From Thioalkalivibrio sp. ALJ24 (GTDB lineage Bacteria; Pseudomonadota; Gammaproteobacteria; Ectothiorhodospirales; Ectothiorhodospiraceae): a DNA stretch of 64,000 nucleotides. The notes beneath the pieces were generated by a model. That model was given only the letters and a program-made list of their open reading frames with translations, was not told the DNA's origin and made no database searches. Shown piece after piece: positions 407 to 15,581 of the stretch. Each line of letters begins with the position of its first letter. Positions within the stretch are counted from its first letter, which is position 1. A program made the translations under genes and the position numbers. Location of the stretch: positions 248,001 through 312,000 of the forward strand of contig NZ_KB898724.1 of NCBI RefSeq assembly GCF_000377785.1. Direction: 5' to 3'.

Positions 407-3310
407 GTGATCCCGCAAGCCGAAACCGTGACTCCGGAGCCGGACGCGTTCGCACGGGCAGCCGTGGGTCTGGTGGTGCTGGATGCGGCGGGTCGTATCG
501 ACCGTGCGAATCCTCGGTTTGCGGCCTGGCTGGGGCGTCCGGCCGGGGATCTGGTCGGATGCCCGCTGGGGGAACTCGTCCGGCCCGTGGAACGGGAACG
601 ACTGGAAGAGGCCCTGCGGGAGGTCCGGCACGATGGCGCAGCCGAAAGGGACCTGCAACTGCGCCTCGCCACCGAGGATGACGATGCCCTGGCCGTGCGG
701 GTAACCTTGACCCGCGGGGGACACGAGGGGGTGCTGGCCACCGTGCAGCGCACGGGCGAGCCGCCCCTTCCCGAGGACCCGCCCGCGGCCGGCGAGCATC
801 ATCCCACCGGTGTCCTTGAGGGCCGTCTGTTGCAGAGCCTGGAGGAAGGGGTGTTCGGGGTCGACCGCGGCGGCCGCTACACCTTTCTCAATCCGGCGGC
901 CTGTCGACTGCTGGGATTTGCCTCGGAGGCGCAGGTGCTGGGACGCGATTCCCACGCAACCTCGCATCATTCTCACCTCGACGGTTCTCCCTACCCCCAC
1001 GAGGAATGCCCGATCCATCGGGTATTGCGCAGCGGAGAACCGGTGGAGGCCTGGGAGGACACCTTCTGGCGCGCGGACGGGAGCCCGTTTCCGGTGCGGG
1101 TGTACGCGGCGCCACTGTGGGGCGTGCACGGTGCAATCGAAGGCGTCGTCGTCTCGTTCCAGGACGAAACCGTGCGCCAGGAGCGGGAGGGCCGTCTGGC
1201 CAAGGCGGCGCGCAACCTGCCCGGTGCGATCTTCCAGTACCGCCAGTATCCCGACGGCCACGCCGTCTTTCCGTACGCCAGCGACGGGGCGCAGCAGGTC
1301 TTCGGTGTGAGCGCGGAGCAGGTGATGCGCGACCCGGCGGTCGCGTTTTCCCGCGTGCACGACGACGACCTGGTGCAGGTGCAGGCCAGCATCGCGGCCT
1401 CGGTGCGCGAGATGCAGCCCTGGCACGTCCGCTTCCGCGTACGCCACCCGGCGAATGGCTGGATCTGGGTCGAGGGGCGCTCCACCCCCGAGGCCCTGAC
1501 GGACGGCAGCGTGCTGTGGCACGGGGTGATGATCGACATCAGCGAGAGGATGGCGGCGGAACAGGCCCTGCGCGAGCGCGAGCGGGAACTGTCCGAGGCG
1601 CAGGCCATGGCGCATGTGGGCAGCTGGGTGTGGGAGCTGGCGGAAGACCGGATGTACTGGTCGGACGAGGTGTACCGCATCCTGGGCCAGACCCGCGACG
1701 AGCAGGGGGCGAGCCTGCAGCGCTTCCTGGACGCGGTGCACCCGGACGATCGCGCGCGGGTGGATGCAGCAGTGCGGGCAGGTCTGGAAGGCGAACCCTA
1801 TGACCTCCACTTCCGCGTGCAGTGTCCGCACGGCGCCGAGCGACAGGTGCACCTGCGGGCTGCCGTGGAGCTGGACGAGCACGGTCGGCCGTCACGCCTG
1901 GTGGGGACCGGACAGGATCTGACCGAATGGTTCGAGCTGGAAGAGAACCAGCGCCGGTTGATCGACATCCTCGAAGGTACGCCGGACGTGGTCGCGATGC
2001 ATGACCCCGACGGCGCGATGCTGTTCATGAATGCGGCGGGCCGGCATCTGTTCGGGCTGCCGGAGGCGCCGGCGGAGCCGTGGTGCTCCGGGACGGGCTG
2101 GGATACCCGTGGGCTCCCCGGTGAGGAGGGGCTGGAGGCCACGGTCCATCGCTTCCAGCCGCCGTGGGCGGCGCGCAGGACCCTCGAGGAGGCGATGCCG
2201 GTGGCATTGCGGGACGGCGTGTGGGAGGGCGAGACCGCGGTGGTGGACCGAGACGGGCGCGAGGTGCCGGTGTCGCAGGTCATCGTCGTGCGGCGCGACG
2301 ACCGCGGAGAGGTAAGCCAGATTTCGACCATCATTCGGGACATTTCCGGGCGCAAGGCGATCGAGGATGCCCTGCGCGAGAGCGAGACCCGCTTCCTCCA
2401 GCTGGCCTCCAGCGTCGAGGAGGTGTTCTGGCTGCGCGAGGAGGACCGCCTGCTGTACGTGAACCCGGCTTTCGACGCCCTCTGGGGTCTCAGTCGGGAG
2501 CGGCTGTATGCTGAACCTGAAGCGCTGCTGGGCCCGGTGCATGCCGATGATCGGGCCCACGTCGCCGACGTGATCCGCACGCAAACCGGGCGACGGACGG
2601 GCGGAGAGGAGACCTTCCGGCTGCTGCGCCCCGACGGCGACGTTCGCTGGGTCCGTCTGCGCTGCTATCCGGTGGCCGATGTCGAGGGCAACGTGACGCG
2701 CAGCGCGGCGACCGCGGTGGATGTGACCGAACTCAAGCACACCCAGCAGCAGCTGGAACACGCGAACGCGGAACTCGAACGCCAGGCGTTCTTCGACCGG
2801 CTGACGGGGGCCGCCAACCGGCGCTATTTCGAGAGCCTGCTGGATCGCGAAGCCGAGCGAGCGGAGCGTTACGGGACACCGTTTGCGCTGGTGATGTTCG
2901 ACCTCGACCACTTCAAGCGGGTCAATGACACCTGGGGCCACGATACCGGCGACGTGGTGCTGCAGGAGGTCGCGCGGATCGCGGATGAGCGCCTGCGCGA
3001 GCCGGATGTGCTGGGGCGCTGGGGTGGCGAGGAATTCATGATCCTGCTGCCCGGGGATTCCGTGGCGCAGGCCGGAGTGGCGGCCGAGGCGGTGCGGGCG
3101 CGGGTCGCGGAACACGGGTTCCCGCAGGTCGGACAGGTCACCATCTCGCTCGGCGTGGCCGGCCACCGTCCGGGCGAACCCCGCAAGGAGCTGCTGCGCC
3201 GGGTGGACGAGGCGCTGTACCGCGCCAAGCGGGAGGGGCGCAACCGGGTGGTGATGGCCGGCGACGGGTTCGATACCGCCGACGGTTGTACGGGACACGG
3301 CGCCGAGTAA
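407..3310 (+). CDS. Multi-PAS sensor diguanylate cyclase (GGDEF)
   Basis: Predicted soluble enzyme of 967 residues that makes cyclic di-GMP from GTP in response to signals sensed by PAS domains. Six PAS-type modules can be followed, at roughly residues 12-115, 131-255, 267-385, 393-510, 515-650 and 660-780. Several end in PAC-like phrases such as GVMIDISERM and ISTIIRDISGRK. They lead into a GGDEF domain (about 795-955) with the active-site sequence GGEEF at 873-877. The product-inhibition site RxxD is present as REPD, exactly five residues before GGEEF, so the enzyme is probably both active and feedback-inhibited. There is no EAL domain and no membrane segment. The start is GTG at 407, behind a purine-rich AGGAAGG. 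It stands alone between the gcvPB terminator and convergent znuA. The ligands are unknown; redox or oxygen sensing is only a guess from PAS content. Confidence 0.88.
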   Translation: MIPQAETVTPEPDAFARAAVGLVVLDAAGRIDRANPRFAAWLGRPAGDLVGCPLGELVRPVERERLEEALREVRHDGAAERDLQLRLATEDDDALAVRVTLTRGGHEGVLATVQRTGEPPLPEDPPAAGEHHPTGVLEGRLLQSLEEGVFGVDRGGRYTFLNPAACRLLGFASEAQVLGRDSHATSHHSHLDGSPYPHEECPIHRVLRSGEPVEAWEDTFWRADGSPFPVRVYAAPLWGVHGAIEGVVVSFQDETVRQEREGRLAKAARNLPGAIFQYRQYPDGHAVFPYASDGAQQVFGVSAEQVMRDPAVAFSRVHDDDLVQVQASIAASVREMQPWHVRFRVRHPANGWIWVEGRSTPEALTDGSVLWHGVMIDISERMAAEQALRERERELSEAQAMAHVGSWVWELAEDRMYWSDEVYRILGQTRDEQGASLQRFLDAVHPDDRARVDAAVRAGLEGEPYDLHFRVQCPHGAERQVHLRAAVELDEHGRPSRLVGTGQDLTEWFELEENQRRLIDILEGTPDVVAMHDPDGAMLFMNAAGRHLFGLPEAPAEPWCSGTGWDTRGLPGEEGLEATVHRFQPPWAARRTLEEAMPVALRDGVWEGETAVVDRDGREVPVSQVIVVRRDDRGEVSQISTIIRDISGRKAIEDALRESETRFLQLASSVEEVFWLREEDRLLYVNPAFDALWGLSRERLYAEPEALLGPVHADDRAHVADVIRTQTGRRTGGEETFRLLRPDGDVRWVRLRCYPVADVEGNVTRSAATAVDVTELKHTQQQLEHANAELERQAFFDRLTGAANRRYFESLLDREAERAERYGTPFALVMFDLDHFKRVNDTWGHDTGDVVLQEVARIADERLREPDVLGRWGGEEFMILLPGDSVAQAGVAAEAVRARVAEHGFPQVGQVTISLGVAGHRPGEPRKELLRRVDEALYRAKREGRNRVVMAGDGFDTADGCTGHGAE

Positions 3311-3347
3311 CGAGCCTGCCTGCGCGCGGGCGCCTTGCGACGCGGGT

Positions 3348-4388
3348 TTATTCGCGCTTCATGCAGTCCAGGAAGCCGTCCGCCAGATCCTCCATCAGTT
3401 CGAACCAGGCCTCCGGGCCGGGCCGGATGTCCACGCCGACCGGGTCCAGTTGCCCCAGGCGCGTCGCGTGACCTTCCACGATGGTCTCGGCCAGCGCCGG
3501 GCGGAACTGCGGCTCGGTGAACAGGCAGGTGACATCGTCCCCGGACAGGCGGTCGCGCAGTTCGCTGATGCGCCGCGCCCCCGGACTGCGGGACGGGTCG
3601 ATGGTGATGGAGCCGGCCGCGTTCAGGCCGTAATGCGCCTCGAAATACTGGTAGGCGTCGTGGAACACCACGAAGGGCTCGTCACCGACCGGCTCCAGGC
3701 GCTCCTTCAGTTCGGTATCGAGCGCGTCGATGCGTTCCAGCATGCGGTCGCGGTTGTCTTCCAGAGCGCCGGCCTTGTCGGGGAAATTCTCGCTGAGTCG
3801 GTCGGCAAGCTGCGTCACGATCGCCCGGGCGTTGTCGGGTGACAGCCAGATGTGGGCGTCCTGGTGGCCATGTGCGTGATCATGCCCATGGTCGTGGTCA
3901 TGTCCGTGGTCGTGGTCATAGTCATGGTCATGCCCGTGATCATGGTCATCGCCAGGCCCTTCTTCGTGGGTCTCGTCATGCGCCGCATCATGGTCGTGAT
4001 CGTGGTCATGCGGTTCCCAGACCCCGCCCGAGCGCGTGGGCAGCAGATCGAGCTCCATGTCCTCCATCAGGGTGACGACCGTGGTACCTTCTCCCCGATT
4101 GCGCAGGGGTGATTCGAGGAAGGTTTCCAGATCCGGGCCGACCCAGACCACCACGTCGGCGTTCTGCAGGCGCCGGGCCTCGGACGGGCGCATGGAGTAG
4201 CCATGCGGGGAGGCATCGGGCGGGAGCAGGACATCGGCCTCCATCACGTCGTCGACCAGTCCCGCGACCAGTCCGTGGATCGGGAGGATGCTGGTAACGA
4301 CCCGCGGACCGTCCGCCTGTGCCGGGGCGGCCAGTGTGGCGCTGGCGAGCAGGGTGCCGGCGAGCAGGGGGAAACGTTGGCGCATCAT
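3348..4388 (-). CDS. znuA: Periplasmic zinc-binding protein of the ZnuABC importer
   Basis: High-affinity zinc receptor that hands Zn2+ to the ZnuB permease. The 346 residues start at MMRQRF (4388; 4385 also possible) with a signal peptide ending near APAQA. Residues about 127-176 form a very long loop of alternating His and Asp, typical of zinc-specific cluster A-I proteins and thought to collect or sense metal. Ligand positions match the family: His in DASPHGYS, in DAHIWLSP and in VFHDAYQYF. Cys in DVTCLFTEPQFRP and the C-terminal GFLDCMKRE match the ZnuA disulfide. It is transcribed away from znuCB, with a Zur-like site in the short gap. A longer open frame reaches back through znuC on the other strand, but it has no family similarity there. 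Confidence 0.93.
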   Translation of the reverse strand: MMRQRFPLLAGTLLASATLAAPAQADGPRVVTSILPIHGLVAGLVDDVMEADVLLPPDASPHGYSMRPSEARRLQNADVVVWVGPDLETFLESPLRNRGEGTTVVTLMEDMELDLLPTRSGGVWEPHDHDHDHDAAHDETHEEGPGDDHDHGHDHDYDHDHGHDHDHGHDHAHGHQDAHIWLSPDNARAIVTQLADRLSENFPDKAGALEDNRDRMLERIDALDTELKERLEPVGDEPFVVFHDAYQYFEAHYGLNAAGSITIDPSRSPGARRISELRDRLSGDDVTCLFTEPQFRPALAETIVEGHATRLGQLDPVGVDIRPGPEAWFELMEDLADGFLDCMKRE

Positions 4389-4414
4389 GACCGGGGCTCC
4401 GTCTGGGATCTGGA

Positions 4415-4429
4415 TGTTATACAATACCA
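4415..4429. promoter_or_regulatory. Zur-like operator between znuA and znuC
   Basis: The 15-mer TGTTATACAATACCA resembles the gammaproteobacterial Zur consensus (TGTTATA..TATAACA); five of seven symmetric positions pair. It is an AT-rich island in GC-rich DNA, 27 bases from the znuA start and 3 bases before the annotated znuC ATG. Binding by Zur with zinc would repress both transcripts. The zur gene is not in the window. Confidence 0.65.
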
Positions 4430-4431
4430 CC

Positions 4432-5304
4432 ATGTTTGCGAACGTCCACAACTGGTTGCGCGGCGAGCGTGCAGGCCGCCACCCCCGGCCACGCCCGGCG
4501 CGCGGTTCCGGGCCGCTGGTAGGGGCCCGCGAGGTGACGGTGCAGCGGGGCGGGCGGACGATCCTCGACCGCGTGTCGATGGCCGTGCACCCGGGCGAGG
4601 CGGCGATGATCATCGGGCCCAACGGGGCGGGCAAGACCAGTCTGCTGCGCGTGCTGATGGGGCTGTGGCAGCCGGATGGCGGTCGGGTCGAACGCGCCCC
4701 GGATCTGCGGGTCGGGTACATGCCCCAGCGGCTGCAGATCGAACCGGTGCTGCCGCTGTCGGTCAATCGCTTCCTGCGCATGCGCCAGCGACTGCCGCGG
4801 CGTGAACTGCTGGCCAAGCTGGAACGGGTGGGGGTCGGACACCTGATCGATTCGCCGATCCAGTCCCTGTCCGGCGGCGAGACCCAGCGGGTGCTGCTGG
4901 CGCGGGCATTGCTGGGCGAGCCCGATCTGCTGGTGCTGGACGAACCGGCCCAGGGGGTCGACGTGGTCGGGCAGGGCGACGTGTTCGCGATGCTGGACGA
5001 CATTCGTCGCGAAACCGGCTGCGGGGTGCTGATCGTCTCGCACGACCTGCATTTCGTGATGGCCGGTGCCGAGACGGTGATCTGCCTGAACCAGCATGTC
5101 TGCTGCACCGGAAACCCCGAGGAGGTCTCGCGTCATCCGGAATACCGGCGCCTGTTCCCCAGCGTGGACCTGCGGGGCCTGGCGGTCTACACCCATGATC
5201 ACAACCACGTGCACGGCCTGCACGGCGAGGTGCGCCCGCTGGATGGAGAGGGCACGGACGCCTCCTGCGACGATCCGCAACATGGTCCGGGGTGCCGCCA
5301 CTGA
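4432..5304 (+). CDS. znuC: Zinc ABC transporter ATP-binding protein
   Basis: ATPase subunit driving zinc import through ZnuB. The 290 residues carry Walker A (GPNGAGKTS), signature LSGGETQRVLLARAL, Walker B (LLVLDEPAQGVD) and the switch histidine (IVSHDLHFV), in the order expected for a short-chain ABC ATPase. The C-terminal tail has several His and Cys (YTHDHNHVHGLHGE, then GPGCRH), as in other ZnuC proteins, and may touch zinc. The start is uncertain. The ATG at 4432 has no ribosome-binding site because the Zur-like box is directly upstream, and family members usually begin near the segment GPLVGAREVTV about 30 residues later. The transcript may be leaderless, or a downstream non-ATG start may be used. 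It is coupled to znuB by a TGATG overlap. Confidence 0.92.
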   Translation: MFANVHNWLRGERAGRHPRPRPARGSGPLVGAREVTVQRGGRTILDRVSMAVHPGEAAMIIGPNGAGKTSLLRVLMGLWQPDGGRVERAPDLRVGYMPQRLQIEPVLPLSVNRFLRMRQRLPRRELLAKLERVGVGHLIDSPIQSLSGGETQRVLLARALLGEPDLLVLDEPAQGVDVVGQGDVFAMLDDIRRETGCGVLIVSHDLHFVMAGAETVICLNQHVCCTGNPEEVSRHPEYRRLFPSVDLRGLAVYTHDHNHVHGLHGEVRPLDGEGTDASCDDPQHGPGCRH

Positions 5305-6128
5305 TGGACATCGCCGGCTGGCTGGACGACTTCCTGGTGCGGGCCGTGCTCGCGGGGCTGATGGTGGCCGCCGTGGCCGGGCCGCTGGGGGCCTTCGTGG
5401 TGTGGCGGCGCATGGCCTATTTCGGCGACACGGTGTCGCACTCGGCACTGCTGGGGGTGGCCCTGGGTTTCCTGCTGGGGCTCAATCTCAACCTGATGGT
5501 GACGCTGGTCTGCATCGCCATCGCGGTGCTCCTGGTGATCCTGCAGCGCTATCAGGAGCTGGGCTCGGACACCCTGCTGGGGATCCTCGCGCACAGCGCG
5601 CTGTCGCTGGGGATCGTGGCCGTGGCCTTCGTCGAGGGGCTGCGGGTGGACCTGATGGCCTATCTGTTCGGCGACATCCTCGCGGTGGGGCGCGACGACC
5701 TGCTGGCGATCGCCATTGGCGGGCTGATCGCGCTGGTGCTGCTGATCGCGCTGTGGCGGCCTCTGCTGGCGCTGACCGTGCACGAGGAACTGGCGCGGGT
5801 GGAGGGCGTGCGGGCCCTGCCGGTGCGCCTGGGCATGATGCTGCTGATCGCGCTGGTGATCGCGGCGGCGATGCAGGTGGTGGGCGTGCTGCTGATCACG
5901 GCGCTGATGATCATCCCGGCGGCCACTTCACGACGCTTCGCCCGCACCCCCGAGCAGATGGCGATCCTCGCCGGGGTCCTGGGCATGCTCGCGGTGGGCG
6001 CCGGGATCGCGGGGTCGTTCCACTGGGATACCCCCACCGGGCCGAGCATCGTGGTCGCGGCCCTGCTGGGGTTCATCCTGGTGCAGCTGCTGCCCGCGCG
6101 GCTGCTGCCGCGCTTCGGCACGCGCTGA
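5304..6128 (+). CDS. znuB: Zinc ABC transporter permease
   Basis: Inner-membrane channel subunit of the ZnuABC zinc importer, 274 residues with about eight hydrophobic helices. The opening FVVWRRMAYFGDTVSHSALL is the signature of the ABC-3 (ZnuB/MntB) permease family. The ATG at 5304 overlaps the znuC TGA by one base, giving translational coupling; a GTG at 5292 in the same frame is less likely. It converges on folA with only 6 bases between the stops, so transcription from the two sides must end within the neighbouring genes. Confidence 0.93.
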   Translation: MDIAGWLDDFLVRAVLAGLMVAAVAGPLGAFVVWRRMAYFGDTVSHSALLGVALGFLLGLNLNLMVTLVCIAIAVLLVILQRYQELGSDTLLGILAHSALSLGIVAVAFVEGLRVDLMAYLFGDILAVGRDDLLAIAIGGLIALVLLIALWRPLLALTVHEELARVEGVRALPVRLGMMLLIALVIAAAMQVVGVLLITALMIIPAATSRRFARTPEQMAILAGVLGMLAVGAGIAGSFHWDTPTGPSIVVAALLGFILVQLLPARLLPRFGTR

Positions 6129-6134
6129 TCCGGC

Positions 6135-6641
6135 TCAGCGCCGCTCCAGACGCTCGAAGGTGAACGCGCAGGCGTGGTGCTCGTCGGCCGGGTGGTATTC
6201 CGACTCGGTCAGCGTCCATTCCGCGGGATCGATGGCGGGGAAATACGTATCGCCGGGATGGCGTTCGTGCACCCGGGTCAGGTGCAGGACCCGGGTGCGC
6301 GGCAGGGCCTCGGCGAACAGCCCGGCACCGCCGATGACGAACGCCGGCCCCGAATCGATATTCGCCAGCGCTTTGTCCAGGTCGGGAAAGACCTCGACGC
6401 CCTCGGGTTGCTGCCAGTCGGTCTGTCGGGACAGGACCAGGTTGCGGCGCCTCGGCAGCGGTCGGCCGATGGATTCGAACGTGCGCCGGCCCATGATCAC
6501 CGGATGGCCGGCGGTCACCCGCTTGAAGTGCCGCAGGTCGTCCGGCAGCCGCCACGGCAGGTCGTTGTCGCGCCCGATCACGTGATCCGGGTCCAGCGCC
6601 ACGATGATATGGATCTCGGGTCCCCGGGCCTCAGGCTGCAT
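6135..6641 (-). CDS. folA: Dihydrofolate reductase
   Basis: NADPH-dependent reduction of dihydrofolate to tetrahydrofolate. The 168-residue length is normal for the chromosomal enzyme. Family landmarks are IIVALDPDHVIGRDNDLPWR, the acidic-site region LPDDLRHFK, GHPVIMGRRTFESIGRPLP and FVIGGAGLFAEAL. The start is the ATG at 6641, which lies inside the last codons of the HicB-like gene (11-base overlap); the frame is open further upstream, but the extra sequence is unlike DHFR. It is the last gene of the minus-strand unit lgt-thyA-hicB-folA. ThyA produces dihydrofolate and FolA recycles it, so the pairing is functional. Confidence 0.95.
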   Translation of the reverse strand: MQPEARGPEIHIIVALDPDHVIGRDNDLPWRLPDDLRHFKRVTAGHPVIMGRRTFESIGRPLPRRRNLVLSRQTDWQQPEGVEVFPDLDKALANIDSGPAFVIGGAGLFAEALPRTRVLHLTRVHERHPGDTYFPAIDPAEWTLTESEYHPADEHHACAFTFERLERR

Positions 6642-6849
6642 CGATTCGCACGGTTTCGCTGGAATGGTGCGGTTCGGGAATCGGCTCGCCTTCGTCGTGC
6701 AGGGCTTCCAGGTGCATGGTGATCGCCTCGCGAATCGCGGCCATGACTTCCTCGCGGCTGTCACCGGTCGCGATGCAGCCGGGAAGATCCGGCACATAGG
6801 CTCCCCAGCCGCCGTCGCCCTGCTGGATAATGACCGTGTATTGTTTCAT
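6631..6849 (-). CDS. Solitary HicB-like protein
   Basis: A 72-residue protein of the HicB antitoxin/UPF0150 type, with the core VIIQQGDGGWGAYVPDLPGC followed by IATGDSREEV and a helix EVMAAIREAITMHLEAL. This is the RNase H-like fold of HicB without the usual C-terminal DNA-binding domain. No HicA toxin reading frame is next to it: the 42 bases to thyA hold no gene, and folA overlaps its end. It may be an orphan antitoxin or an unrelated small regulator using the same fold. It sits between thyA and folA and overlaps folA by 11 bases, so it is co-translated with the folate genes. Confidence 0.85.
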   Translation of the reverse strand: MKQYTVIIQQGDGGWGAYVPDLPGCIATGDSREEVMAAIREAITMHLEALHDEGEPIPEPHHSSETVRIDAA

Positions 6850-6891
6850 GGTCGCCTCCCGGTCCTCAGAACCAATCTAGCGCATGGCTGG

Positions 6892-7725
6892 CTAGATGGC
6901 GATGGGGGCGCGGATGGCGGGGTGGGACTGGTAGTCGCGGACCTCGATGTCGTCGAAGCGGAACGCGAACAGGTCGCGCACCTCCGGGTTGAGGTGCAGG
7001 GTCGGCAGCGGCAGCGGGTCGCGCTCCAGCAGGGTGTCGACCTGCTCGGCGTGGTTGGCGTAGAGGTGCGCATCGCCCAGGGTATGGACGAATTCGCCCG
7101 GCTCCAGGTCGACCACCTGCGCGATCATGTGGGTCAGCAGGGCATAGCTGGCGATGTTGAAGGGCACGCCGAGGAACACGTCGGCACTGCGCTGGTAGAG
7201 CTGGCAGGACAGCCGGCCGTCGGCCACGTAGAACTGGAACAGGGCGTGGCAGGGGGCGAGGGCCATGCGGCCCTCGGCCGCGTTCTCCTGCGGGGCGCGG
7301 GTCTCGTCCGGCAGTTCGGCGACGTTCCACGCGGATATCACGTGGCGCCGGGAGTGCGGCCGGGTGCGGAGGTTGTCCAGCAGCTCCGTCAGCTGATCGT
7401 GGGTGCCTCCGTCGGGCAGCGGCCAGGAACGCCACTGGGCGCCGTAGATCGGGCCCAGTTCACCGCCCTCGGTGGCCCATTCATCCCAGATGGTTACCTT
7501 GTTGTCGCGCAGGTAGCCCACGTTGGTGTCCCCCGCGAGGAACCACAGCAGCTCGTGGATGACCGAGCGCAGATGGGTCTTCTTGGTGGTGACCAGGGGG
7601 AAGCCCTGCGCCAGGTCGAAGCGCATCTGGTAGCCGAACACCGAGCGCGTCCCGGTGCCGGTGCGGTCCGGGCGGTCGCTGCCGTGGTCGCGGATGTGGC
7701 GGACGAGGTCCAGATATTGCCGCAT
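6892..7725 (-). CDS. thyA: Thymidylate synthase
   Basis: Methylates dUMP to dTMP with 5,10-methylene-tetrahydrofolate, giving dihydrofolate for FolA downstream. The 277 residues begin [15 protein letters not shown] and hold the catalytic cysteine at about 159 in [13 protein letters not shown]. Other conserved blocks are [42 protein letters not shown] and HLYANHAEQ. Relative to the E. coli enzyme there is a short extra stretch before the catalytic cysteine. The gene follows lgt after a 9-base gap, as in many Gammaproteobacteria. Confidence 0.97.
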
Positions 7726-7734
7726 GGTGCGTCC

Positions 7735-8553
7735 TCAGGGCTTGCCGGAGGTGTCCGGGCGGGGTTCGGGCAGGGGGTTGCGGCGCGACCATACGATCAG
7801 GCCGAGGCCGAACAGGATCACCGGCAGTGACAGGACCTGGCCCATGGTGACCCAGCCGAAGGCGAGATAGCCGATGTGCGCGTCCGGTTCGCGCACGAAT
7901 TCCACCACGAAGCGGAACGCGCCGTACAGAGTCAGGAACAGGCCCGAGATCAAACCGGTCCGCCGCGGCTGGCGCGACACCAGCCACAGCACCACGAACA
8001 GGATCACGCCTTCGAGAAAGGCCTGGTAGAGCTGCGAGGGATGACGGGGCACGTAGTCGGCCGCGGGGAAGACCATCGCCCACGGCAGGTCGGTGGGCTT
8101 GCCCCACAGCTCGCCGTTGATCCAGTTGCCTACGCGGCCGGCACCCAGCCCAATGGGGATCAGCGGGGCGACGAAATCGGTCAGGCGGAAGAACGGCTGG
8201 TGCAGATGTCGGGCGTACAGCCAGGCGGTGACCAGCACGCCGATCAGCCCGCCGTGGAAGGACATCCCGCCCTCCCACAGCCGGATCAGGCTGACCGGAT
8301 CGGCCAGCACGCCGTCGAGGTTGTAGAACAGCGCATAACCCAGGCGGCCGCCGATGATCACGCCGATCGCGCCCCAGAACAGCAGGTCGCCGACCTGGCG
8401 CGGCTCCAGCGGATCCCAGTCACGCGAGCGCGCGCGCCAGACCCCCAGCCCCCAGAAGGCCAGGAATCCGATGACGTACATCAGCCCGTACCAGTGGATG
8501 CTGATCGGGCCCAGGGAGAACGCGACCGGATCGATAAACGGGTGAGTGGGCAT
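7735..8553 (-). CDS. lgt: Phosphatidylglycerol-prolipoprotein diacylglyceryl transferase
   Basis: Inner-membrane enzyme that moves diacylglyceryl from phosphatidylglycerol to the lipobox cysteine of prolipoproteins, the first step of lipoprotein maturation. The 272 residues have about seven membrane segments. They carry the family motifs [37 protein letters not shown] and [13 protein letters not shown]. The start was placed at MPTHPFIDP (8553) by family comparison; a start ten residues earlier is possible. First gene of the lgt-thyA-hicB-folA unit, divergent from the YyaL-type gene. RlpA in this window is one likely substrate. Confidence 0.95.
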
Positions 8554-11259: not shown

Positions 11260-11300
11260 CCGGGCCGCTGCAGCCAGCCGGCGGTTGCCTCCGGCCCGGT
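11260..11300. terminator. Inverted repeat after the rhodanese gene, terminator-like
   Basis: ACCGGGCC (11260-11267) is the exact complement of GGCCCGGT (11293-11300), with 25 bases between. There is no T-tract. The distal arm runs into the first PhoB-like half site. Confidence 0.4.
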
Positions 11301-11325
11301 CACCCAAACGTCACGCGCCGGTCAA
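11297..11325 (+). promoter_or_regulatory. Three tandem PhoB-like half sites (Pho box) upstream of olsB
   Basis: The heptamers CGGTCAC (11297-11303), ACGTCAC (11308-11314) and CGGTCAA (11319-11325) are separated by exactly 4 bases each, so GTCA recurs every 11 bp at 11299, 11310 and 11321. This 7+4+7+4 direct-repeat layout is the hallmark of PhoB sites (E. coli half site CTGTCAT). The last half site ends 56 bases before the olsB ATG. A weak -10 candidate, TAGTCT, lies at 11347-11352. The call rests on spacing and core; a weight-matrix score was not computed. Confidence 0.65.
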
Positions 11326-11381
11326 GGCGCTGCAAGCCGATGGCCGTAGTCTCCCGAGGCATGACCCGTGGAGACTTCGCC

Positions 11382-12191
11382 ATGTCCGATTCGCCCCTTC
11401 ATGCGACACATTCCGCCGATCCCGGTTACGAATGGCGCGTGGCCCGTGACCGCGAAGAACTGAGGGCAGCCCAGCGTCTGCGTTTCCGGGTCGCGGCGGA
11501 GCATCGCGGTCGCTACCTGCCGGCGCGTCTGGCCGGGCTGGATCGTGACCCGCTGGATGCCTGGGGCCACCATCTGCTGGTATTCGCCCGCGGCACGCGC
11601 GAACCGGTGGCCTGTGCCCGTCTGCTGGTGGAGGAGACCGCGGCTGCGGCGGGCGGCTTCCCGGGCCTCGAGGACTTCGATCTCGGCCCGCTGATGGCCC
11701 TGTCCGGTCGCGGCGCGGAGCTCGATCGCGTCCGTTTCCTGCCCGGGTTCGAGGAGCGTGAAGCAGCGGTCGCCGCGCTCTGGCGCGGGGTGACCCGTCT
11801 GCTGGAAAGCCTCGACTGCCGCTACCTGATCGCGCGCACGTCGCTGCCTCTGGATCGCCATACGCCGGCCAGCCTTGCCTGGTTGCGCAATTTCCGTCGC
11901 ACCCCGTCGCGGTGCCGCGTGGGCCCGCGCAAACCGCTTCCCAATGCCCTGACGATCTGGCACGGCATGCCGTCGGCGGAGGGCCTGCCGCCGCTGGCCC
12001 GGTCGTGGCTGGCCTTCGGGGCGAAGGTCGCCGGCGAGCCATCGCGTGACGTCAGCGGAGATGCGGCCAGCCTCCTGATGCTGCTGCGGCGCGCCGATAT
12101 CCCCGCACGCTTTCGCTCGGCGGAGCCGTGGCATTCTGGGGCTGGCAGCGACGCCGCCGGCCCGGGGCGTTTCGCCTCGGGGGAATGGTGA
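11382..12191 (+). CDS. olsB: OlsB-type ornithine N-acyltransferase (GNAT fold)
   Basis: Predicted to transfer a 3-hydroxyacyl group from acyl-ACP to the alpha-amino group of ornithine, giving lyso-ornithine lipid, the first step of phosphorus-free ornithine lipid synthesis. The 269 residues contain the OlsB/autoinducer-synthase-like pattern YEWRVARDREELRAAQRLRF, then AWGHHLLVFARG, EPVACARLL and DLGPLMALSGRGAELDRVRF. ATG 11382 lies behind GGAG; an upstream in-frame ATG at 11340 would add 14 residues. Its TGA overlaps the start region of the glycosyltransferase gene. The C-terminal ~60 residues are low-complexity. An olsA-like gene lies about 2.6 kb downstream, and a Pho-box-like element precedes the gene. 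Another long-chain N-acyl amino acid synthase activity cannot be excluded. Confidence 0.82.
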   Translation: MSDSPLHATHSADPGYEWRVARDREELRAAQRLRFRVAAEHRGRYLPARLAGLDRDPLDAWGHHLLVFARGTREPVACARLLVEETAAAAGGFPGLEDFDLGPLMALSGRGAELDRVRFLPGFEEREAAVAALWRGVTRLLESLDCRYLIARTSLPLDRHTPASLAWLRNFRRTPSRCRVGPRKPLPNALTIWHGMPSAEGLPPLARSWLAFGAKVAGEPSRDVSGDAASLLMLLRRADIPARFRSAEPWHSGAGSDAAGPGRFASGEW

Positions 12192-12193
12192 TC

Positions 12194-13399
12194 ATGGCGG
12201 CGAGCCCGCGCGTGGCCGTGGTGACCGAGACCTGGCCACCCGAGATCAATGGCGTGGCCCTGACCCTGCACCGCCTGGTGGAAGGGATCCGCGAAGGTGG
12301 CTGGCAGGCCGGGGTCGTGCGTCCCCGCCAGGCGGTGGACCGGGCGCGCGGTCCGCAGCCGGTGGCGGAGGAAGACGAATACCGGGTACCGGGGTTGCCG
12401 CTCCCGGGCTATCCGGGCCTGCGCATGGGGTTGCCGGTGCGTCAGCGTCTGCTGCGACGCTGGTCACGCCTGCGGCCCGATGTCGTGCATGTGGCCACCG
12501 AGGGCCCGCTGGGGCACGCGGCACTGAGCGCCGCCCGTCGCCTCGGCATCCCCGTCAGTTCGGCCTTTCACACCCGATTCGATGGCTACGCCCGGCATTA
12601 CGGCATGCGCTGGGCCGAGCCTCTGGCGCTGGAGATGCTGCGGCGCTTTCACAATCGTTGCCATGCCACCCAGGTCCCGACCCGGACCCTGGCCAGAGAA
12701 CTGGAGTCGCACGGCTTCCACGGTGTACGGGTGCTGGCGCGGGGGGTGGATTCTGCGATGTTTCACCCCGGCCGGCGGTCGTGGTCCCTGCGCCAGGAAT
12801 GGGGTGGCGGCGTGGACGCGCCGGTGCTGATGAGCGTGGGGCGGCTGGCGCCGGAGAAATCACCCGAAGACGTCATTCGCGCCTGGGAAGCGGTCCGCAC
12901 CCGCCTGCCGAATGCGCGTCTGGTTATGGTCGGGGACGGACCGTCGCGTCCCGCCCTGGAGGCCCGCCACCCCGAGGTGATCTTTGTCGGCATGCGTACC
13001 GGCGAGGACCTCGCGGCCCATTACGCGAGCGCCGACCTGTTCGTGTTCGCCTCACGATCCGAGACCTTCGGTAACGTGGTGATCGAAGCGATGGCCAGTG
13101 GTCTGCCGGTGCTGGCCTTTGACCGCGCCGCGGCGCGCGAACACCTGCGCGACGGCGAGAACGGCGTGCGGGTGCCGGTCAGCGGTCATGCGGATCGGGA
13201 CAGCGAGGCGTTCGCCGGTGTGGCACTGCGTCTGGCGGAAAAGCGTCGGCGTGACCGCCTGGCCTGGAAGGGCATGGGCGAGGCCGCCCGCCTGCGGGCC
13301 GAGGGACTGGACTGGTCCTGCATCGTGGCCCATTTCGCCGCCCAGCTGGAAGAACTCCTTGCGGAGGAGGGGCGCCATGCGTCTGCTGCAGCGGGTTGA
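12194..13399 (+). CDS. GT4 family glycosyltransferase (MgtA/SQD2-like)
   Basis: Predicted retaining glycosyltransferase with the GT-B fold, 401 residues, likely using a nucleotide sugar to glycosylate a lipid at the inner membrane. The N-terminal acceptor domain starts ASPRVAVVTETWPPEINGVA, typical of the SQD2/PimB/MgtA-like branch. The C-terminal domain has SVGRLAPEKSPEDVIRAW and the E-x7-E motif in SETFGNVVIEAMASG. The ATG at 12194 has GGGGGA at a good distance; an ATG at 12185 would overlap the olsB stop. It also overlaps the PAP2 gene by 23 bases, so olsB, this gene and PAP2 form one translational unit. Diacylglycerol is the attractive acceptor given the PAP2 phosphatase next door, but the sugar and acceptor cannot be read from the sequence. 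Confidence 0.85.
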   Translation: MAASPRVAVVTETWPPEINGVALTLHRLVEGIREGGWQAGVVRPRQAVDRARGPQPVAEEDEYRVPGLPLPGYPGLRMGLPVRQRLLRRWSRLRPDVVHVATEGPLGHAALSAARRLGIPVSSAFHTRFDGYARHYGMRWAEPLALEMLRRFHNRCHATQVPTRTLARELESHGFHGVRVLARGVDSAMFHPGRRSWSLRQEWGGGVDAPVLMSVGRLAPEKSPEDVIRAWEAVRTRLPNARLVMVGDGPSRPALEARHPEVIFVGMRTGEDLAAHYASADLFVFASRSETFGNVVIEAMASGLPVLAFDRAAAREHLRDGENGVRVPVSGHADRDSEAFAGVALRLAEKRRRDRLAWKGMGEAARLRAEGLDWSCIVAHFAAQLEELLAEEGRHASAAAG

Positions 13400-13925
13400 C
13401 CATCTCGACGGCCGTGTCGCTCGCCGCTGTAACCGGTTCGCGCGGCATCCGCTCGTCAGTCGGTTCTTTGCCGTCGTCTCGCGACTGGGCAATGGCGGGG
13501 CCTGGTACGCGATCATGCTTGCACTGCCGGCGATCCATGGGTACTGGGCGTGGACGGTCAGCCTGCACATGATGGCCGTGGGTCTGGTGTCGATGCCGCT
13601 CTACCGGGTACTCAAGCAGGGGGCCGGCCGGCCGCGGCCTTACCGGCGCCACGATGATCTGTTGCCGGGGGTGCCTCCGCTGGACGAGTTCAGCTTTCCG
13701 TCCGGGCACACCATGCACGCCGTGGGTTTCACGGTCGTGCTGGTGGCCTGGCTGCCGGCCTGGGCCTGGCTGGTGGTGCCGTTCGCGCTGCTGGTGGCCA
13801 TGTCGCGCCTGGTGCTGGCACTGCACTATCCCAGCGACGTGGCGGTGGGGGCGCTGATCGGCGCATTGATCGCCGGTGCCAGCCTGGCGCTGGTTCCGTG
13901 GTTGCCTCTGCCGGTTCCGGTCTGA
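13377..13925 (+). CDS. PAP2-family membrane phosphatase
   Basis: 182-residue inner-membrane acid phosphatase of the PAP2 superfamily. All three catalytic signatures are present: KQGAGRPRPYR (K-x6-RP), SFPSGHTMH (PSGH) and SRLVLALHYPSD (SR-x5-H-x3-D). About four hydrophobic segments surround them. The ATG at 13377 lies behind GGAGGAGG and overlaps the preceding glycosyltransferase gene. Family members dephosphorylate phosphatidic acid, phosphatidylglycerophosphate or undecaprenyl diphosphate. In this operon phosphatidic acid to diacylglycerol is the most economical reading, providing the acceptor for the glycosyltransferase; this is inference. Confidence 0.88.
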   Translation: MRLLQRVDHLDGRVARRCNRFARHPLVSRFFAVVSRLGNGGAWYAIMLALPAIHGYWAWTVSLHMMAVGLVSMPLYRVLKQGAGRPRPYRRHDDLLPGVPPLDEFSFPSGHTMHAVGFTVVLVAWLPAWAWLVVPFALLVAMSRLVLALHYPSDVAVGALIGALIAGASLALVPWLPLPVPV

Positions 13926-13944
13926 GGCGCACGGGCGAGCGCGC

Positions 13945-14645
13945 TCAGGCGCCCGTGCGGTGTTCGCGGCCGAAGCGCTGGTGGAGATAGGCGGTGGCCA
14001 GCAGGACCAGACCCAGGCCCATGAAGGACAGTGCCCGCAGTACGCCGGAAAGACCGGCAAGGTCGATCAGGAAGACCTTGAGGATCACCACCACCAGCAG
14101 GGTCATGCCCACTCCGTAGATCTCGCGACTGGCATAACGGATGCCCCCGGCCAGGCCGGCCAGGGCCATCAGCAGCCAGGCCAGCGAGTGGCTGTAGAGT
14201 TCACCACCCGGCAGCCCCGCGCTGTAGTGCACGGTGCCGTGCCACAGATGGCGAACCTGCAGGGTCACGAACAGCCAGCCGCCCACAGCAGCGGCCACGC
14301 CCAGCAGTATCCTCCATGCAGCATCGAACCACTGGCGCCCCCGGCAGCCACAGCAGCGCCGGTAAGGCATAGGCCCGCCACAGGAGGCCGGGGCCTGCCG
14401 ACGGTGGGCGTGAACCGGACGGTGCAGCGGGGCGTGCCCCTGCGGATGCGGGGTGCCGGGGCGGGCTCGGTGTCGGCCGTGGTGGTTCCCGCGGCCTGCG
14501 GGGCGTGTGCCTCCAGCGTCGTCAGGCGGGCCTCCAGCGCGCTCACGCGTTGGCGCAGCCGCCAGGCGATCACGGTCGCCACCGGGCCCAGTCCCGGCAG
14601 CACGATCACGCCGAGCAAAAAGAGTCGTTCCATCCAGTCGAGCAC
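13945..14645 (-). pseudogene. Decayed remnant of a DUF2339 membrane protein gene
   Basis: Both ends of a DUF2339 protein are recognisable, but the middle is gone and the frames do not match. The N-terminus (GTG 14645 behind AGGGAG) reads VLDWMERLFLLGVIVLPGLG with a following coiled coil, RLRQRVSALEARLTTLEAHA, and stays open to 14265. The C-terminus is in another frame: LAWLLMALAGLAGGIRYASR, then GVGMTLLVVVILKVFLIDLA and LSGVLRALSFMGLGL, ending at 13945. A third frame in between (around 14370) reads AYALPALLWLPGA, another DUF2339-like scrap. Intact family members are several hundred residues longer with many membrane helices. At least one large deletion and two frameshifts are needed. It lies opposite to and between the PAP2 and olsA genes of the lipid locus. 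Confidence 0.75.
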
Positions 14646-14810
14646 GCCGCACTCCCTGCCGCACCCGGGCCGGGATCCCGGGATCGGGCTCATCCTAAAA
14701 CGCTTCGGCAAGGCCTGCAGTCCCCCGGCGCGGACGGGTCTCGTTTACCATGGGCGGCGCGATCGGGGCACGCGCAATCCCGCGGTGGTCCCGCAACACA
14801 AGGGACGGGC

Positions 14811-15581
14811 ATGAGAGGTACGGCAAGAGGGGTATTTCGGCTGATTCGGATCGTGGGGCATCTGCTGTTTGGCGTCTGGATCACCTGGCGGCTGCAGCGA
14901 CGGCAGGCGGGCCTCGAGGCGCATTCGCAGGTACGGCGGGCCTGGTACCGGCGCGCGCTGCGGCTGGCGGGGGTGCAGTTCGAGGTTACCGGGACGGCGC
15001 CGGGCGCGCCCTCGCTGGTGGTCGCGAATCACGTGTCCTGGCTGGACATCCCGTTGCTGGGAGCCGCGCTGGATCCGTGTTTCCTGTCCAAGGCGGAGAT
15101 CGCCCGCTGGCCGGTGATCGGCTGGCTGGCGCGGCGCCACGGGACCCGGTTCATCCGGCGTGGCGCCCACGAGGCGCGCGCCCACGTGGACGCGATGCGC
15201 GAGGGACTGGATGCGGGGCGCCACTTCGCGGTGTTTCCGGAGGGGACGACCACCCGGGGCCACGGCATGCGGCGCTTCCACCCGCGGCTGTTCGCCGCGG
15301 TCACCGACACCGCACACCCGGTGCAGCCGGTGGCGCTGGATTACGAGACCCGCAACGATGGCGTGGTGCCGGTCTCGTTCGCCGGTCCCGACCGTCTGGT
15401 GCCCAACGTGTGGCGACTGCTGTGCCGACCGTCCACCCGGGTGACGGTGCGCGTGCTGGACCCACTGGAAGGCGGGGAGCGGCCCCGAAGGGAGCTGGCC
15501 GAGCGCTCGCGCGCGCAGATCGTCGAGGCGCTGGAGCTGCCCGCCGAGCCGATCCAGGACCCGCGGCCGGGACAGGGCTGA
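14811..15581 (+). CDS. olsA: PlsC-domain lysophospholipid/lyso-ornithine lipid acyltransferase
   Basis: 256-residue 1-acylglycerol-3-phosphate acyltransferase-family enzyme. Motif I is NHVSWLD (H-x4-D), motif III is FPEGTTTRG, and between them lies FLSKAEIARWPVIGWLARRH followed by GTRFIRRG. An N-terminal hydrophobic helix (residues 8-25) anchors it. The opening RGVFRLIRIVGHLLFGVWIT resembles the OlsA-like branch, which O-acylates lyso-ornithine lipid; a PlsC-type phosphatidate role is possible, since some enzymes do both. The start is the ATG at 14811; the long frame upstream is the complement of the pseudogene. Context with olsB favours ornithine lipid completion. It converges on apaH with 26 bases between stops. 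Confidence 0.78.
   Translation: MRGTARGVFRLIRIVGHLLFGVWITWRLQRRQAGLEAHSQVRRAWYRRALRLAGVQFEVTGTAPGAPSLVVANHVSWLDIPLLGAALDPCFLSKAEIARWPVIGWLARRHGTRFIRRGAHEARAHVDAMREGLDAGRHFAVFPEGTTTRGHGMRRFHPRLFAAVTDTAHPVQPVALDYETRNDGVVPVSFAGPDRLVPNVWRLLCRPSTRVTVRVLDPLEGGERPRRELAERSRAQIVEALELPAEPIQDPRPGQG

Follow-up and report, generated by a model that had tools for sequence, protein, structure and literature searches.

A predicted Pho-regulated PAP2–glycosyltransferase operon with an altered enzyme at its OlsB position in Thioalkalivibrio sp. ALJ24

In the established PlcP–Agt route of bacterial lipid renovation, the diacylglycerol (DAG) used for glycolipids is supplied by PlcP, a phospholipase that attacks finished phospholipids (PMC4796936, PMC8528852, PMC9239053). 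The glycosyltransferase Agt2 of Pseudomonas aeruginosa (PA0842) yields glucuronosyl-DAG in Escherichia coli, and the purified enzyme uses DAG together with UDP-glucuronate and, to some extent, UDP-glucose; Agt2 protein rises under phosphate stress, a Pho box has been published for PA0842, and P. aeruginosa is also described as having ornithine lipid under phosphate stress (PMC8528852). Here we analyse a locus at positions 11297–15581 of a 64,000-nucleotide stretch of Thioalkalivibrio sp. ALJ24 (contig C1, 248001-312000, of a 2.8-Mb genome; this whole stretch is called the window), where a putative Pho box precedes genes for a GNAT-fold acyltransferase, a GT4 glycosyltransferase and a PAP2-family phosphatase. 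From sequence comparison we consider it probable (about 0.7) that the locus is a PhoB-activated membrane-remodelling operon, in which PAP2 and GT4 form a Pho-controlled glycolipid branch and the amino-lipid arm is disturbed.

All four genes that the first-pass annotation had assigned to this locus (GNAT, GT4, PAP2 and PlsC-domain) were confirmed by their open frames and Pfam matches. The features are as follows.

11297..11340, plus strand: putative Pho box of four 11-bp half-sites, CGGTCACCCAA / ACGTCACGCGC / CGGTCAAGGCG / CTGCAAGCCGA (pstS-derived matrix, 18.1 bits)
11347..11352, plus strand: putative -10 element TAGTCT, 6 nt past the fourth half-site (spacing as in pstS promoters; kept in L012-L016 and L060)
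11382..12191, plus strand: GNAT-fold N-acyltransferase in the olsB position, aberrant OlsB-like (PF13444, 43.2 bits)
12194..13399, plus strand: GT4 glycosyltransferase of Agt2 type, predicted UDP-sugar:diacylglycerol transferase (Pfam; 48% identity to the P. aeruginosa gene)
13377..13925, plus strand: PAP2-family membrane phosphatase, predicted phosphatidate phosphatase (PF01569, 78.1 bits)
13945..14711, minus strand: DUF2339 remnant between PAP2 and the olsA-like gene (PF10101 positions 538-659 of 659 only)
14811..15581, plus strand: PlsC-domain acyltransferase, olsA-like, displaced from the operon (PF01553, 81.8 bits)

The overlapping unit proposed earlier stands in part. GT4 and PAP2 share 23 bp, and the GNAT stop at 12191 lies 2 bp ahead of the ATG at 12194 that we adopted as the GT4 start (the longest GT4 open frame begins at a GTG at 12128 and would overlap GNAT). 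The olsA-like gene lies outside the unit because about 0.9 kb, containing a minus-strand DUF2339 fragment, separates it from PAP2.

The promoter evidence begins with the Pho-box-like site that had been noted upstream of these genes, a claim that our analysis upholds. Its three GTCA cores lie at 11299, 11310 and 11321, in exact 11-bp steps. Across the 2.8-Mb genome such a triple has 6 matches at 4 places and the reversed control pattern has 0; two of the places are the promoters of pstS and of the pstC-pstA pair, on the same stretch as PhoB/PhoR. Another triple, at C3:112105-112130 (L133 1606-1631), is intergenic: it is flanked by a GH3 gene and uvrB, each encoded on the minus strand, and touches the uvrB end. 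A stricter pattern, TGTCA-N6-TGTCA, occurs at 4 genomic places, none of them within the window. We then scored the window with a 56-bp matrix built from pstS promoters only, with lipid-locus sequences excluded; the promoter set (n=30) came from the strain's own genome and 29 others, 35 of 58 genomes having had a pstS match. The site starting at 11297 on the plus strand scored 18.1 bits and was the top site on either strand of the 64 kb. It stands well above chance, since the second-best site reached 3.1 bits and the best scores of 100 windows shuffled in 200-bp blocks averaged 5.1 with a maximum of 13.3. Given the genome-wide triple count and this matrix score, a chance origin of the GTCA triplet was rejected as unlikely.

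The internal structure of the site also resembles that of pst promoters. Each of the 30 pstS promoters can be divided into four slots of 11 bp; in 9 of them the fourth is letter for letter that of the window box, CTGCAAGC, and 27 have NATA(A/C)T exactly 6 nt past the fourth slot. The register from box to -10 element in the window is that of the pst promoters, though TAGTCT is a poor -10 match. The regulatory partners are encoded in the genome: its own PhoB scores 342.4 bits on TIGR02154 (cut-off 296.2), PhoR is present by Pfam domain, and PstS and PstC reach 254.5 bits (cut-off 206.6) and 205.4 bits (cut-off 196.45). The frames called PstC (756 aa) and PstA (558 aa) at L132 8497-12466 far exceed their models (296 and 272), and the match to each model falls in the C-terminal part of the frame. 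An additional internal Pho site ahead of GT4 was sought and rejected (best score -19 in 11901-12194). The prediction that 11297-11340 is a PhoB-regulated promoter box thus holds up.

Conservation of this promoter was followed in two sets of loci. The wider set held the best 80 of 285 GT4 loci, 79 of which were scored for Pho sites (L079, whose GT4 begins too close to the end of its contig, was left out); the set of relatives held 29 loci (L093-L121, 29 genomes), which are the best 30 matches minus the strain's own locus, with 1.5-kb flanks. The two sets overlap in organisms, and their counts are therefore not to be added. Within the best 80 of 285 matches, the closest named relatives by GT4 are six Thioalkalivibrio loci at 56-58% identity (L012-L016 and L060). 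Whether the repeats are kept there has a divided answer: one slot of the array reads TACA in L012-L016, which leaves these loci with no perfect GTCA pair at 11-bp spacing, but in all six loci the array occupies the same slots before GNAT together with TAGTCT, and no other site in the locus scores higher with the matrix (9.8-20.2 bits). In 51 of the 79 scored loci, the highest pst-matrix score anywhere in the locus, on either strand, falls within 260 bp upstream of GT4 or GNAT, as against a chance expectation of 1.2, 5 for the reversed matrix and 0-5 for 20 permuted matrices; this limit of 260 bp was fixed after the locus scores had been seen, and the loci are mutually related. GTCA pairs at 11 bp occur within 450 bp upstream of GT4 in 27/80 loci, and the reversed pattern in 1/80.

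Other arrangements of these genes also carry Pho-like sites. The methylococcaceal locus L077 (4127-8536) combines a Pho-like site, a PlcP-like gene, an Agt2-type GT4, a diacylglycerol kinase and a second GT4, and appears to be a related DAG-handling cassette; there the PlcP-like gene, with the Pho site in front of it, fills the position ahead of GT4, which we count in favour of the operon reading. In L018 (Hydrogenophaga; 2131-8241), a Pho-like site of 19.8 bits at a class-III aminotransferase gene is followed by GT4 and then by a PhoX alkaline phosphatase gene; the site lies near the start of the called frame, in which the aminotransferase domain begins at residue 148. Three loci of the same genus as the window (L201, L202 and L204) have GT4-PAP2 apart from a GNAT/PlcP-like group, each with its own Pho-like site, and no OlsA match was seen in these three stretches.

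The gene on which the glycolipid branch turns is GT4. By tblastn, its product shares 187 of 390 residues (48%, 303 bits) with a P. aeruginosa protein whose gene lies directly behind cerN, plcH and plcR; both proteins have an E-x7-E motif, which we take to be characteristic. PlcR, PlcH and CerN are PA0843, PA0844 and PA0845 (PMC5150637), and the compared gene is placed at the PA0842 position because it follows plcR, the record itself not bearing that name. As a positive control, the matrix site directly upstream of this P. aeruginosa gene scored 27.2 bits, the best of its stretch. On the strength of the 48% identity to the Agt2-position protein and of the published Agt2 biochemistry, DAG is the most likely acceptor of the window GT4, with glucuronate as a first guess for the sugar.

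The top NCBIfam model for GT4 is an N-acetylglucosamine (GlcNAc)-phosphatidylglycerol synthase (132 bits), so that phosphatidylglycerol might be the acceptor instead of DAG. If GT4 glycosylated phosphatidylglycerol, as GpgS does, and PAP2 acted on phosphatidylglycerol phosphate or undecaprenyl diphosphate, the operon would alter surface charge and not save phosphorus. GpgS is a GT4 enzyme of the cd03814 type (PMC12713373), and the window PAP2 weakly matches undecaprenyl-diphosphatase and PgpB models. We nevertheless regard this account as quite improbable: the 132 bits are well short of the curated 480; a similar score on that model, 135 bits, goes to the Agt2-position protein of P. aeruginosa, which is 48% identical and for whose gene activity on DAG has been published; no deacetylase or flippase gene is found among the scanned window neighbours; and the Pho-box footprint extends across GT4 loci.

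For DAG-directed GT4, PAP2 is the candidate supplier. The motifs that we take to define active PAP2 enzymes (K-x6-RP, PSGH and SR-x5-H-x3-D) are kept in the window protein as K80-x6-R87P88, P108SGH111 and S143R144-x5-H150-x3-D154, and are invariant in 5/5 aligned proteins, that of the window included; the best-matching solved chain by sequence is LpxE (6ebu). A PAP2 gene lies within 300 bp behind GT4 in 29/29 relatives' loci and in 50/80 wider loci, and also in Acinetobacter. With the L077 PlcP-like protein as query (E<=1e-15), the strain's own genome gave no PlcP-like match; of the 58 genomes searched, 23 gave one. As the strain has no obvious PlcP, PAP2 acting on phosphatidate would be the simplest source of DAG. 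The earlier proposal that PAP2 makes DAG for the glycosyltransferase is thus plausible in the light of the adjacency in relatives, the missing PlcP-like match and the intact motifs.

A number of observations weigh against a PhoB-driven, PAP2-fed operon. On the promoter side, the pst arrays were chosen by their best match to a consensus, and the 80% identity filter cut the 30 arrays to 12 for the matrix; the triple at C3:112105 has no obvious Pho gene behind it; L012-L016 lack the perfect GTCA pairs; and 28/79 loci have their top Pho-like site in another place or only a weak one. Among individual loci, the Pho site of L077 precedes the PlcP-like gene directly upstream of GT4 and not GT4 itself, that of L018 lies about 2.9 kb upstream of GT4, with PhoX after GT4, L020, L030 and L031 were placed by position only, and L022 and L090 have no site above 1.5 bits. 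On the phosphatase side, PAP2 enzymes also use other lipid phosphates, the best NCBIfam model of the window PAP2 is undecaprenyl-diphosphatase (46 bits, cut-off 250), and 30/80 wider loci have no adjacent PAP2. The PlcP comparison has its own limits: the L077 query belongs to the LpxH-related metallophosphatases but scores below the LpxH cut-off, so that its identity as PlcP rests on position and that domain; several same-genus PAP2 genomes also carry a PlcP-like gene, so the two are not exclusive; and a PlcP-like gene stands beside GT4 in only 2/80 wider loci and 2/29 relatives' loci.

The PAP2-fed glycolipid branch is joined, in relatives, to a pair of ornithine-lipid-type genes. Their order is olsB(GNAT)-olsA-GT4-PAP2, and all four genes occur together in 16/29 relatives' loci and 12/80 wider loci; in L048, L076 and L083, GT4-PAP2 comes first and GNAT-OlsA follows. 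The four-gene combination, which the first-pass annotation had not known from any described locus, is therefore real and conserved in relatives, and no description of it, or of a Pho box, PAP2 and a glycosyltransferase together, was found in the open PubMed Central literature. Nothing on Thioalkalivibrio with ornithine lipid was found there either, and the accessible part of the Thioalkalivibrio K90mix genome paper yielded no lipid data.

That one regulon makes both ornithine lipid and a glycolipid, as had been proposed, fits the relatives better than this strain, in which the GNAT is aberrant and olsA lies outside the unit without a Pho site. An intact locus producing both lipids through OlsB and OlsA would be in keeping with the Pho box and glycolipid genes, with the co-occurrence of the four genes in relatives, with an olsA-like protein that is not degraded and with a predicted GNAT fold that is still closest to FeeM and acyl-homoserine lactone (AHL) synthases. 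This fold, computed from an alignment with the relatives, has a mean predicted local distance difference test score (pLDDT) of 82.8, and its top five solved-structure matches are to FeeM, TofI and LasI, with modest TM-scores of 0.46-0.48 by query length. We think such an intact locus unlikely in view of what follows for the GNAT and olsA-like genes.

An intact OlsB-type GNAT was not borne out. On two OlsB models the window protein scores 48 bits (cut-off 350) and 43 bits (cut-off 320). Its homologues in L012, L026, L046, L048, L062, L200 and L202 score 159-174 on the first model, and Variovorax also stays below the cut-off at 169-175; proteins of Shinella (507) and Microvirga (387) exceed the second cut-off of 320. 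The curated OlsB and OlsA cut-offs are evidently too strict for this clade, because the relatives' proteins fall short of them as well; a score below them says little by itself, and the argument rests on comparison with relatives. Among 75 columns invariant in 11 relatives, the window GNAT keeps 43 and departs at 32, by 29 substitutions and by 3 gaps close to the C-terminus, whereas each of the 11 other rows alters 0-2, a contrast against which it counts that several congener rows are close to each other and have fewer private changes by construction. The altered positions include F38, E41, M42, C62, Y94, G115, T117, C118, G151-C152-A153, Y209, R211, F226 and D230. In a second set of 11 loci the window GNAT alters 38/82, the next being L046 with 12/56, and the changes in the other window proteins amount to 9/132 for GT4 (L046 also 9), 3/50 for PAP2 and 1/46 for OlsA. 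Identity to three outgroup loci is likewise low, at 32-35% for the window GNAT versus 49-57% for seven congeners; this gap of 14-24 points compares with about 6 points at most for GT4, PAP2 and OlsA. No other OlsB candidate was found among the three PF13444 proteins of the genome, the remaining two matching an exosortase-type model (203.8 and 110.1 bits, cut-off 111.95).

Such a protein could be in decay, in a lineage that lost ornithine lipid and in which only the promoter, GT4 and PAP2 are still selected. The outgroup identity gap, so much wider for GNAT than for its neighbours, points this way, as does the displacement of olsA beside a DUF2339 remnant, a sign of local rearrangement. Other properties fit decay less well. 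The frame is open over its full length, and R34, D56, D59, R80, E113 and R116 are kept; presumably these correspond to the charged residues that AHL synthases require. Divergence is regional along the chain, residues 151-210 matching a congener in 0.67-0.70 of columns, 121-150 in 0.31 and 211-240 in 0.40; in this analysis the outgroup fraction pools seven rows and is not one-to-one with that of the window. At the 111 changed columns, hydropathy retains a slight correlation with that of the congeners (r 0.26, permutation p 0.003).

These features leave room for a second account, in which a switch to another acyl acceptor, and not decay, accounts for the altered enzyme, so that one product of the Pho operon would be a phosphorus-free N-acyl amino lipid distinct from ornithine lipid, beside a PAP2-fed glucuronosyl-diacylglycerol. 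It is suggested by the combination of a kept charged core with rewritten GRTC and GCAS stretches and a rewritten C-terminal strand region. We find a new acceptor rather doubtful and hold decay as a tentative preference; of the two, the GNAT sequence leans to decay.

The olsA-like gene differs from the GNAT in having changed place and not character. Its product scores 120 and 99.6 bits on OlsA models (cut-off 300), about as far off as the best OlsA scores of L012, L026, L046, L048 and L200 (122-137), is 59-66% identical to the second operon gene of seven congeners and has 1 of 46 invariant positions changed. By these comparisons it is a normal ortholog of the relatives' second operon gene. A Pho site of its own was rejected (best score -20 in 14601-14811, the 211 bp upstream). 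In the intervening segment, the DUF2339 C-terminal piece lies in frame 13945-14664, and a second, overlapping frame (14265-14711) has no family match; L012-L016 and L060 have no match above 45 bits to the DUF2339 piece, and the remnant may be a trace of the event by which olsA was moved. The window contains no known RNA element or tRNA that would explain the displacement. Outside the locus, a rhodanese gene and a gene that we take to be YyaL-like lie upstream of the unit, and the downstream neighbour is a calcineurin-type phosphoesterase gene on the opposite strand.

Taken as a PhoB-activated operon, the locus would work as follows. Under phosphate starvation, PhoB would bind the four-half-site box at 11297-11340 and activate transcription from the -10 element at 11347. 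PAP2, to judge by homology and context, would convert phosphatidate to DAG and inorganic phosphate, a step that would stand in for the PlcP step of the PlcP-Agt pathway, and the Agt2-type GT4 would add glucuronate (or glucose) from a UDP-sugar to give a phosphorus-free glycolipid. In close relatives an intact olsB-olsA pair is under the control of this promoter as well, and a single operon is thus predicted to make both an amino lipid and a glycolipid. In the window lineage the amino-lipid arm would be disturbed, with olsA outside the operon and an OlsB-like protein that retains an AHL-synthase-like charged core; having lost much of its family signature while this core was kept, the protein may be losing its function or acylating something other than ornithine.

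The PAP2 partner is conserved in the Thioalkalivibrio group and in some other Gammaproteobacteria, and could draw DAG from phosphatidate before phospholipid synthesis. The relatives' ornithine-lipid-type genes, being under the same promoter, offer a genetic handle on how the acyl pool is split between amino lipids and glycolipids, and the window lineage may serve as a natural experiment, with one arm of the operon altered and the promoter and glycolipid arm left as they were.

Among known systems, the OlsB/OlsA pathway is one with which the locus shares the GNAT and PlsC domains, and its relatives share the order GNAT then PlsC; the locus differs in that neither window protein reaches the curated cut-offs, which the relatives' proteins do not reach either, and in that the window GNAT has also lost much of the family signature. 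GpgS (PMC12713373) is likewise a GT4 enzyme for a lipid head group and corresponds to the best-scoring curated model, but the window GT4 stays at 132 bits where 480 are required, and neither a deacetylase nor a flippase gene accompanies it among the scanned window neighbours. Agt2 (PA0842) has 48% protein identity and, as in the window, a matrix-detected Pho site directly upstream; its gene, however, lies behind plcH-plcR, with the PlcP of P. aeruginosa (PA3219) encoded elsewhere (PMC8528852), whereas in the window PAP2 overlaps GT4. The PlcP-Agt operons of marine and other proteobacteria (PMC4796936, PMC9239053) have in common with the window a Pho box, a glycosyltransferase and a DAG-yielding enzyme. 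There that enzyme is PlcP, whereas the window has PAP2, predicted to act on phosphatidate, and the operons of the window's relatives have an olsBA pair built in. What appears to be new is a Pho operon fused with ols genes, in which PAP2 would supply the DAG, together with a change, specific to this lineage, in the enzyme at its OlsB position.

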